In this document: positions 36,779 through 43,610 of the stretch, piece by piece | Layout: each line of letters starts with the position of its first letter | Numbering within the stretch: position 1 is the stretch's first letter | Notes under the pieces: generated by a model | What the model saw: the letters and a program-made list of their open reading frames with translations, nothing else | What the model was told of the DNA's origin: nothing | The model's database searches: none | Position numbers and translations under genes: made by a program | DNA from: Acidobacteriota bacterium | GTDB taxonomy: Bacteria; Acidobacteriota; Holophagae; Holophagales; Holophagaceae | DNA length: 64,000 nucleotides | Assembly (NCBI GenBank): GCA_005788175.1 | Contig: SXYX01000014.1 | Location: 213,277 to 277,276, forward strand | Direction of reading: 5' to 3'

Positions 36779-38053
36779 TTACCTCAAAGTTAAAATTTCT
36801 TGTCCTGCATAACGAGCTTGGGTACCCAGTTCCTTCTCTATCTCCATCAGCCGATTATATTTAGCTACACGGTCAGTTCGTGCAGGCGCTCCAGTTTTAA
36901 TCTGTTTCGCTGAAGAAGCTACGGCTAAATCAGCGATAAACGTATCTTCGCTTTCACCACTTCGATGACTGATAATGCATCGATAGTTTGCACGATGAGC
37001 CATATCTATGGCTTGAAAGGTTTCAGTAAGGGTTCCAATTTGGTTAAGTTTGACCAACAAAGCATTCGCAATTTGATCTGAAATACCTTCTTGGAGTATG
37101 GCGGGGTTAGTCACAAAAACATCATCGCCTACTAATTGAATTTTTTCACCTAGTGCGGCGGTAAGTTTTTTCCAACCGTCGCGATCATCTTCCGCCATAC
37201 CGTCCTCAATACTAATAATTGGAAATTGTCGGATGAGTGACTCGTAATAGACCAATAGTGTTTCTGATGTCAGCGATTTTTCGTCTAGGTGATACTTACC
37301 ATCTCGATAAAATTCTGACGCGGCGCAATCGAGCGCCAAGTAAACATCTTGCCCCAACTTAAAACCTGCTTTTTCAATTGCTTCAGCGATGCAATGGAGG
37401 GCAGCTTCATTATTGTCAAGATGTGGGGCAAACCCGCCCTCATCACCCACGCCCGTTGAAAGGCCTTTATTTTTTAAGACTTTTTTTAAGCTATGGTAAA
37501 TTTCGGCACCCCAGCGAACCGCCTCATGAAAACTAGGTGCAGCCACGGGAACAATCATAAATTCTTGAATGCCTACGTTCGTATCTGCATGAACGCCCCC
37601 ATTCAAAATATTCATCATAGGAACCGGTAGATAGGATAATTCGACTGATCTCAATTGACGATACAAAGGGACTTTCAGTGAGTGGGCCGCGGCTACTGCA
37701 GTAGCCATGGATACCCCTAAAATGGTATTGGCACCCAAACGTGATTTATTAGCGGTACCGTCCAAATCAATCATGAGTTGATCAATATTTTTTTGGTCGT
37801 AAGGATTCTGATTTTTTAGATGGGGGGCTACAATTGTTTCAACAGCGTTGACAGCTTGCAAAACCCCTTTGCCTCCATATCTCCCAAGATCGTGGTCACG
37901 ATGTTCGAGTGCTTCTTTAGAACCCGTGGAGGCTCCCGAAGGGACATTGGCTCGCCCTCGATGTCCATCCGATAAATCTACGGTCACCTGAAGGGTAGGA
38001 TTCCCCCGACTATCTAAAATCTCAAGGGCTAGAATATTTTCAATATGGGGCAT
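36779..38053 (-). CDS. eno: Enolase
   Basis: 424 residues. Interconverts 2-phosphoglycerate and phosphoenolpyruvate. Clear motifs: [110 protein letters not shown] and the signature [20 protein letters not shown]. Catalytic Glu, Lys and His residues are present. Two terminator hairpins lie directly upstream, isolating eno from the TrpC-like gene. Confidence 0.98.
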
Positions 38054-38120: not shown

Positions 38121-38143
38121 AAAAGAAAAGCCCTTTTCGGGCT
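38121..38143 (-). terminator. First of two tandem terminators after the TrpC-like gene
   Basis: On the minus strand: AGCCC, GAAA loop, AGGGCT, then TTTTCTTTT. It begins a few bases after the stop codon of the TrpC-like gene with its lysine-rich tail. Confidence 0.8.
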
Positions 38144-38148
38144 GCGAT

Positions 38149-38238
38149 TTAACGCTTTTTCTTTTTTGCTGCTTTTTTCTTGGTGGCTTTTTTAGCTACT
38201 TTTTTAGTAGCTTTTTTAGCCGCTTTTTTCTTAGCCAT
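38149..38238 (-). CDS. Nested in-frame start: lysine-rich histone-like peptide
   Basis: An internal ATG at 38236-38238, in the same frame as the TrpC-like gene, is preceded by AAAAAGGAGCCAATC, a near-ideal Shine-Dalgarno at 6-7 bases. It would yield a 29-residue peptide beginning MAKKKAAKKATKKVAKK, with Lys as about two thirds of the residues and Ala most of the rest. Such KKxAKK peptides resemble bacterial histone H1/Hc1-like DNA-binding tails. It could be made separately as a small nucleoid protein in addition to the long fusion, or the longer ORF may have arisen by read-in. Expression of the short form is inference. Confidence 0.5.
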   Translation of the reverse strand: MAKKKAAKKATKKVAKKATKKKAAKKKKR

Positions 38239-39192
38239 GATTGGCTCCTTTTTGCCCTTGCGGGCTGTTGTGGAAGGGGTGCGGCGAGCCGGTGTTCCAG
38301 ACATTCTGGACCCGGTATCTTTCCGCGGGGAAGAAATTTTTTCTTTGGCTGCTTTAGTTGCTGCCGGCACAGCCGTTACTACCACGGGGGTTGGAACAGC
38401 CTTTACCTTAGGAATCTTTTTAATTGGGGGTGCTTCACCTTTGAGTAATGACGCTAGTCGCTTGCCAGGATAAAAGTCATCCAAGAGAGCGTCTCCGATA
38501 ATGACGCCGTGAACGCCGAGGGCATGCAAATGCTTCACTTGAACTAATTGGTTAATGCCCGCTTCGAATATGATAAGTGAATCTTTAGGAATCTTTTTAA
38601 TGAGCACAATAGCTTTGTCATAGTTGGGATGCCAGTTCTCTAGATTGCGCCCTACGATACAAAATAATTGAGCACCTACTTCTATGGAGCGTTTAATTTC
38701 ATCGTCATTGGTAACTTCGAATACGACATCTAAACCTTTGGCAATGGCTAACTTATTCAAATCAACTAATTTAGATTGGGTCAAGAGAGCAGGCATGAGA
38801 AAAATAGCGTCTGCGCCAAGGATCTTGCTTTCTTCGACTTGGTATTCTTCAAAAATAAATTCACGACGCAATAGTGGAACCTTCACTTGAGATCGTGTTT
38901 CAGAGAGACCTTTATCATCACCAAAATAAAGAAATTTATCTGTGGCGACAGAAAGTGCTTTGGCCCCATTTTCTACTAGACTTTTAGCGTGCGTTGAAGC
39001 TTTAAAATTTGAGCGTGTTTTACCTAAGCCAGGACTACCGCCTGCAATCTCAGCGATGATAGTAATCGTTCCTTGGCTCAACTGTTCTTTTAAAGAGTGA
39101 TGGCCGCGGTAATTTCCTTTTGCGGCGACCGAACCACGTTGCTTTTTAATTTCAATATCAAGAGCTTTAAAAATAGCAACACGTTTTAACAT
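38149..39192 (-). CDS. TrpC-like TIM-barrel protein with degenerate active site and histone H1-like lysine-rich tail
   Basis: 347 residues. Residues 1-255 align with indole-3-glycerol-phosphate synthase: IIAEIAGGSPGLG for IAEIKxxSPS, KALSVATDKFLYFGD for AISVLTdxxFF, PLLRREFIFEEYQVEESKIL for PvLRKDFiidxYQixEA, LFCIVGRNLENWH for iGiNNRdL, FEAGI for SESGI, GVIIGDALL. Of the catalytic residues known in the family, the glutamates remain (E48, E159, E210), but the lysine of EIK is A50, that of RKDF is R110, the Asn is V180 and the Ser is A211. Synthase activity is therefore doubtful. Residues 256-347 form a Pro/Lys/Ala-rich linker and tail with KAAKK/ATKK repeats. Met319 has its own ribosome-binding site. 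No other trp genes are near. It may be a nucleoid-associated or regulatory protein. Confidence 0.8.
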   Translation of the reverse strand: MLKRVAIFKALDIEIKKQRGSVAAKGNYRGHHSLKEQLSQGTITIIAEIAGGSPGLGKTRSNFKASTHAKSLVENGAKALSVATDKFLYFGDDKGLSETRSQVKVPLLRREFIFEEYQVEESKILGADAIFLMPALLTQSKLVDLNKLAIAKGLDVVFEVTNDDEIKRSIEVGAQLFCIVGRNLENWHPNYDKAIVLIKKIPKDSLIIFEAGINQLVQVKHLHALGVHGVIIGDALLDDFYPGKRLASLLKGEAPPIKKIPKVKAVPTPVVVTAVPAATKAAKEKISSPRKDTGSRMSGTPARRTPSTTARKGKKEPIMAKKKAAKKATKKVAKKATKKKAAKKKKR

Positions 39193-39497
39193 TTAAACAA
39201 GTCTCATGGGTTTTATTGTGTCCTTTATATTACTAAGGTACTGGTTAGCCTTTACACAAACACTTAACTCTATGAAACCCAAGGTTCTTCCGAGAGTCAA
39301 TTGGTTTTTTTTATATTTTGAGGATTCATCCTCACGCTTTCTTCTTAAAATAAATTCATGGCCTATTTTGGAAATGATTTCCTGTCTTTATTGATAAACA
39401 TCGAATGTCAAATAATCCCAATGAAATCAAGGACTCGTTGGGTTTTGAAACTACAAATATTGGAAAAGATAGCCGTTTTTAGTCCACACTATTCACT
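39193..39497. other. 305-bp intergenic region between divergent TrpC-like gene and rnc
   Basis: No convincing gene; small open frames here lack homology and coding character. It must hold promoters for both flanking genes. An inverted repeat TGAGGAT-TC-ATCCTCA at 39319-39334 is the only clear structure and could be an operator or small hairpin. Confidence 0.4.
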
Positions 39498-43091: not shown

Positions 43092-43225
43092 GTTATTTTG
43101 ATTTGGATGAAATCAAGCATAGAATAAGAAATAGAGGTGAACTTCATGTTTCTGCTTTTATGTACAGAGCTCACAAAAAAATTTGTGCTGGTTCTTGGTG
43201 TCTCGTTTTTAATTAGCTGTGGTGG
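43021..43225. repeat. Copy 1 of an imperfect duplication: queA 3' end to lipoprotein 5' end
   Basis: This stretch covers the queA end (43021-43091), the spacer and the start of the cupredoxin lipoprotein gene. Its parts recur in the same order at 43601-43632, 43945-43985 and 44036-44125. The copies share AGGCTATTGA, TCTTATCGTTT, ATGGGATGTT-ATCCAG and the whole signal-peptide coding start. Confidence 0.7.
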
Positions 43226-43610
43226 TGGAGGTGGAGGAGGATCTGCAAGCTATACTTCACCAGGACCCTCTCCTGGTGTTTCAGTGTTTAGCGTAACGAA
43301 TAATGGTTCAATTTCTTACATTATCAATGGAAGTTCTAATCCAGATTTAACACTAACAAGAGGACAAACATATACATTTAATATAAATGCAACGGGTCAT
43401 CCGTTTTGGATAAAAACATCACAAGTTACAGGAACAGACAGTTCATACAACAATGGTGTTACTAATAACGGAAGGGATAGTGGTACTTTAACTTTCACCG
43501 TGCCTAACGACGCCCCATCTACTTTGTTTTATATTTGTCAATTCCACTCATCACAGGTAGGAAGAATTATTATTATTAGCGCAGGGGGAGGTGGAGGCGG
43601 AGGCTATTGA
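43146..43610 (+). CDS. Cupredoxin-like lipoprotein
   Basis: 154 residues from the ATG at 43146, with AGAGGTGA ahead (a GTG at 43137 would add three residues). A signal peptide with lipobox VSFLISC is followed by a poly-Gly linker. The rest is one Greek-key cupredoxin-like domain, with FNINATGHPFWIKTS and TLFYICQFHSSQVG. Putative copper ligands: His in GHPFW, Cys131 and His134 in CQFH; the usual axial Met position is Gly, so a type-1-like site without Met, or no copper at all. The protein ends in a second poly-Gly run; its stop codon lies in a duplicated piece of queA. Probably a periplasmic or outer-membrane electron carrier; it precedes the cytochrome-like lipoprotein. Confidence 0.7.
   Translation: MFLLLCTELTKKFVLVLGVSFLISCGGGGGGGSASYTSPGPSPGVSVFSVTNNGSISYIINGSSNPDLTLTRGQTYTFNINATGHPFWIKTSQVTGTDSSYNNGVTNNGRDSGTLTFTVPNDAPSTLFYICQFHSSQVGRIIIISAGGGGGGGY

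Follow-up and report, generated by a model that had tools for sequence, protein, structure and literature searches.

A TrpC-like barrel without its catalytic residues, fused to a histone H1-like tail with a conserved candidate internal start site in Holophagaceae

Introduction

What does a gene encode whose barrel resembles an enzyme of tryptophan biosynthesis and whose end resembles a histone, and does it give rise to one protein or to two? The question is raised by a locus at 38149-39192 of the 64,000-nucleotide stretch of Holophagaceae DNA that was analysed here (the window). Indole-glycerol-phosphate synthase (IGPS, TrpC) converts CdRP to IGP on a TIM barrel. The initial annotation, made without a stated strand, described such a barrel at this locus, aligned over its whole length with IGPS, depleted of most catalytic residues and fused to a basic tail.

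A barrel without the IGPS catalytic set

The locus is an open frame on the minus strand, as are the parts of the gene, eno and the terminator-like hairpin given below, and it encodes 347 residues from an ATG. The full-length product consists of an IGPS-like pseudoenzyme barrel, a linker and an H1-like tail. The barrel (residues 1-255; 38428-39192) matches the Pfam IGPS family over residues 23-239 (E = 5.6e-47), and AlphaFold predicts most of its blocks with pLDDT values of 75-97, the first 26 residues being uncertain. Among solved structures, IGPS and IGPS-based designed proteins come closest in fold, at about 22-30% identity. The whole barrel aligns, and by Pfam and fold match it belongs to the IGPS TIM barrels. 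The curated NCBIfam cut-offs for TrpC equivalogs are all missed; the best score is 173 bits against a cut-off of 260.

The two Lys, Glu, Asn and Ser residues of the IGPS site count as catalytic residues of the enzyme. In the window protein, the Lys of EIK is replaced by A50, the Lys of RKDF by R110, the Asn of NNR by V180 and the Ser of ESG by A211, while E48, E159 and E210 are retained, exactly as had been annotated; the canonical site is likewise matched at R182, G212 and G233. Canonical IGPS copies, taken from genomes with the barrel-tail gene and from related ones, have every one of these catalytic residues (26 of 26). By contrast, the two Lys, the Asn and the Ser are missing from every one of the 35 distinct orthologues long enough for residue scoring. 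The first Lys position is occupied by Ala or Ser, the second by Arg, His or Gln, the Asn position by Val or Leu, and the Ser position by Ala, Gly or Cys. Neither E48 nor E210 varies, and E159 is Gln in two. A base-call error that would restore the lysines or an earlier stop is excluded by the recurrence of these changes in 35 distinct orthologues.

It is somewhat probable that the barrel is a pseudoenzyme that binds a ligand or a partner. It is doubtful that the barrel is instead an active enzyme, held on the nucleoid by its tail, that acts on a phosphorylated metabolite in a novel reaction and employs for it E48, E159, E210 and R182 together with the retained phosphate site. Barrel residues such as G233-D234, R109, R182 and E210 are tightly conserved, as would suit such an enzyme. 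However, both the Lys that serves as general acid and the second catalytic Lys show variable replacements (A/S and R/H/Q), E159 is Gln in two orthologues and the Ser at position 211 is A/G/C, a pattern that reads as a relaxed active site, and the eno-parAB neighbourhood gives no hint of a pathway.

One Holophagaceae clade with a constant neighbourhood

A search for orthologues with the same class of substitutions and a tail, as had been proposed, recovered the 35 genes, which apparently all belong to Holophagaceae (Geothrix and relatives); the qualification is needed because some of the metagenome-assembled genomes are named to phylum alone or misnamed. In a tree they form one clade with support of 100/100 on a long stem branch (length 2.25). 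No match at 1e-60 was found outside Holophagaceae among 297 Acidobacteriota genomes. Since substitutions and tail are family-wide and purifying selection is strong, a pseudogene or a sequencing error was rejected as an explanation of the locus. In L016/L078, from a metagenome-assembled genome labelled Deltaproteobacteria bin_5, a frameshift at about codons 64-77 breaks the barrel frame, either through faulty assembly or because the copy is decaying; this record is probably misnamed, because the gene is Holophagaceae-like.

In all contigs that extend past the barrel-tail gene, eno (36779-38053 in the window) comes next, mostly with dapF-parA-parB behind. A terminator-like hairpin, identified by consensus match only, lies right after the stop codon (38129-38143). 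Elsewhere in the window, and unrelated to this gene, is a predicted lipoprotein-like open reading frame with poly-Gly runs (GGGGGGG) at both ends (43137-43610).

A candidate internal start site under nucleotide-level constraint

In reading the locus as a fusion alone, the initial annotation missed a second feature. Just before the tail, a Shine-Dalgarno sequence, AAGGAG (38245-38250), stands 6 nt upstream of an in-frame ATG. Sequence at this site is available for 34 distinct orthologues, and 32 of them have the arrangement AAGGAG-N6-ATG. In one of the other two, L073, the ATG has become GTG, by which the start codon is retained and the methionine lost; in the other, L076, the site is gone. These two come from sister genomes of one genus (g9) and are natural variants for the function of a short product.

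The conservation extends to synonymous sites. The AAG and GAG codons of the Shine-Dalgarno sequence are invariant; among 82 barrel columns with a conserved residue, none is codon-invariant. In the Geothrix group (23 genomes), there are no synonymous differences in 2264 comparisons over the 10 codons upstream of the internal ATG, versus a rate of 0.31 in the barrel. The window's genus shows 2 synonymous differences in 150 over codons 281-340, versus a background of roughly 0.45, and positions 38352-38202 form the most identical stretch of the 4.8 kb compared there, though the encoded residues change. An AAGGAG at good spacing precedes 1 of the 44 long open reading frames in the window. The start of the long form, in comparison, has a weak Shine-Dalgarno sequence. 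In the window's genus it is directly abutted by a 4-codon ORF-like element, ATG AGA ... TAA (39193-39222); this element and the weak Shine-Dalgarno sequence may keep output of the long form low. A search for sigma-70-like promoters inside the gene found none, and a promoter of this type was rejected as the source of a short form.

From this conservation of both ribosome-binding sequence and start codon, the internal start is very probably used. It is improbable that only the full-length fusion is made and that the conserved KGxKExxM stretch, instead of being a start site, serves the protein as a motif or the RNA as an element for pausing or regulation. A single product would agree with the linker frame kept in every intact copy, and the hairpins described below could have another purpose. 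Against it stand the constraint on nucleotides, synonymous sites included, a sequence and spacing that make a good ribosome-binding site, and the change in L073, which preserves a start codon and not a methionine.

Linker and predicted RNA structure

The linker (residues 256-318; 38239-38427) is variable as protein, while its 3' half is conserved as nucleotide sequence, and this half is predicted to be structured. The segment 38210-38360 folds better than shuffled sequences (z = -3.09). Upstream of the internal start, a long stem-loop is predicted at 38281-38326, with an outer stem P1 (GCGG...CCGC) and an inner hairpin P2. This prediction draws on the fold score, on folds of individual sequences and on covarying pairs. 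The long stem with such pairs occurs in the Geothrix group as well as in the genus of the window; pair counts for the Geothrix group exclude L004, L007 and L060, which carry a one-codon shift. A C-rich stretch at -40 to -31 from the internal ATG (38269-38278) has 0% G over 33 orthologues, in part a reflection of Ser/Thr/Pro codons.

Two short hairpins follow. P3 (38254-38265; GCCC-GCAA-GGGC) lies before the Shine-Dalgarno sequence and is kept in nearly all orthologues; its 4-bp form GCCC-NNNN-GGGC is 98.4% paired, with compensatory changes at two pairs. P4 (38234-38245; GCCA-AUCA-UGGC) spans the internal start codon and is replaced by GUUCC-NNNN-GGAAC in other clades, so that it occurs in two registers, AGCCA-UGGCU where the second residue of the short product is Ala and GUUCC-GGAAC where it is Glu. 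The independent compensations are modest in number and come from related sequences. No known RNA family matched the linker at the Rfam gathering score. In minimum free energy folds, the Shine-Dalgarno sequence and the AUG are partly occluded, and the RNA structure may restrain initiation; because the hairpins lie partly over these signals, repression or regulation is conceivable instead of strong use. Together, the ribosome-binding site and the structured RNA suggest that the tail is probably a separate gene nested in the fusion.

The opposite extreme, in which the H1-like gene is the functional one and the barrel is an in-frame read-through of no consequence, is very improbable. The strong internal translation signals and the weak Shine-Dalgarno sequence of the long form favour it, but the linker occurs in eleven lengths, all in frame and without stops, and random drift would break some of them. 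The linker is also basic, with a net charge of +4 to +17. The intact frames imply that the fusion protein is kept as well.

The H1-like tail

Residues from about 258 to 347 are predicted to be disordered (pLDDT <50) and rich in Lys, Ala and Pro. The annotated tail of about 90 residues is a real one of H1/Hc2 type, as seen from the HC2 match of a relative given below. The proposed short product, an H1-like basic protein, would start at codon 319 and comprise 29 residues (38149-38238). In the window's genus, the tail has shrunk to 29-33 residues past the internal Met, with a net charge of +17 to +19; in relatives outside the genus with an intact 3' end, the predicted short product has about 107-211 residues and carries K/A/P-rich repeats. 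Such a tail, in L074, matches Pfam HC2 with E = 4.9e-29 (102 bits; cut-off 40). In the window's genus the tail no longer matches HC2, the window's own short tail included; the assignment to Hc2-type, H1-like nucleoproteins comes from the relatives. The barrel-tail locus is the sole or best HC2 match in most genomes of the family that have any, and G011 contains further weak matches. No older, free-standing H1 gene was found upstream of eno in the sampled other families where upstream DNA was present.

Contigs end in or near the lysine-repeat tail in L006, L009, L011, L013, L018, L059, L062-L064, L067 and others, and in G009 the end of the tail sits on a separate contig beside eno. Owing to such breaks in the lysine repeats, draft assemblies often carry the gene in pieces or cut short.

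The shared tail would most likely bind DNA or another polyanion, and its binding to the nucleoid in particular is fairly likely.

The tryptophan pathway in the host genus

Whether the genome holds a second, canonical trpC was examined as had been proposed. None was found in the organism's own 894-kb assembly (85% complete), and none in two congeners whose assemblies are 96-97% complete; TrpA, TrpF and TrpE domains were likewise absent from all three. Most other Holophagaceae genera have a separate, normal and complete TrpC besides the barrel-tail gene; the window's genus is reduced. Despite this, its barrel shows little amino-acid change, while about 45% of codons for the same residue differ. 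These comparisons support purifying selection on the barrel even where the tested tryptophan-synthesis genes are gone, that is, without a tryptophan role in the genus. Sensing of an anthranilate-pathway metabolite, the function initially suggested, is unlikely in the window's genus, because the pathway genes looked for are absent. A still functional TrpC, which the Pfam assignment and the status of the gene as sole IGPS in its genus would suggest, is hardly conceivable and was rejected, given the family-wide loss of four catalytic residues, scores under every NCBIfam TrpC cut-off, the separate TrpC of other genera and the missing TrpA, TrpF and TrpE.

Two probable products from one locus

The observations are likely to be explained by one locus with two products, the fusion of barrel and H1-like tail, and an H1-like protein that is initiated on its own. 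At the level of sequence comparison, the loss of catalytic residues, the clade-wide fusion, the conserved predicted ribosome-binding site and the constraint on the RNA are established, and the idea of a metabolic barrel that lost its IGPS residues and gained a tail like that of histone H1 or Hc2 is supported by the 35 orthologues and the HC2 match. In the proposed course of events, a duplicated or acquired TrpC would have lost IGPS chemistry in an ancestor of Holophagaceae, and the inactive barrel would have been fixed in a fusion protein, of which it forms the N-terminal half, with an H1/Hc2-like tail that would bind DNA or polyanions. The long protein would begin at the weak upstream ATG, and the tail-only protein at the internal ATG, with its strong Shine-Dalgarno sequence within conserved structured RNA. 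The short form may act as a condenser of the nucleoid or of a polyanion, and in the long form that tail may anchor the barrel to the nucleoid, in the way proposed for granules and the tails of PhaF and AlgP. Several points count against this reading: the short product has just 29 residues in the window, the absence of the internal site from L076 means that the site is not indispensable, no sigma-70-like promoter was found inside the gene, the hairpins lie partly over the Shine-Dalgarno sequence and the AUG, independent covariation events are modest in number, and the barrel may have another enzymatic activity.

A further proposal is unlikely to hold: that the structured RNA in the coding region sets the ratio of free H1-like protein to its barrel-tethered form throughout the family, so that a ligand of the barrel would tune chromosome compaction, or the barrel would be localised to the nucleoid beside eno-parAB.

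The locus shows that, across a whole clade, a barrel from the tryptophan pathway was recruited into a histone-like protein, and offers evolutionary evidence of a putative gene inside a gene, with its start site in a conserved RNA structure. Geothrix is cultivable, which makes the two-product reading testable there. Family matching will label the gene TrpC, and reduced Holophagaceae genomes may consequently be miscredited with a step of tryptophan synthesis.

Comparison with known systems

The locus shares features with four known types of system. Literature searches for IGPS combined with H1-like sequence, for TrpC pseudoenzymes and for histones or nucleoids in Holophagae gave no relevant work. 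With TrpC (PF00218), the whole barrel aligns at the identities to solved structures given above, and E48, E159, E210, R182, G212 and G233 are common to both; it is set apart by the fused basic tail, by sub-threshold NCBIfam scores and by 35 of 35 orthologues that lack both catalytic Lys as well as the Asn and the Ser. With the chlamydial Hc2/H1-like nucleoproteins (PF07382), it shares a Lys/Ala-rich repeat tail of variable length, matched above the HC2 cut-off in relatives; the size of Hc2, too, varies by repeat number (PMC2848022). Hc2 stands alone, whereas in this locus a barrel protein carries the tail as its C-terminus, and a nested product consisting of the tail is proposed as well.

AlgP and PhaF of Pseudomonas likewise combine a folded or helical N-terminal part with disordered H1-like C-terminal repeats, which are thought to tether cargo to the nucleoid; their N-terminal domain, however, is unrelated and helical, not an IGPS barrel, and the portion of that account used here describes no nested start (PMC9239181). 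Finally, CheA-L/S, IF2 alpha/beta and ClpB are bacterial in-frame proteoform pairs in which one gene yields two products by an internal start (PMC11005335), as is proposed here. They differ from the present case in that the proposed short product is a disordered H1-like tail alone, and in that its internal start lies within a conserved RNA structure.
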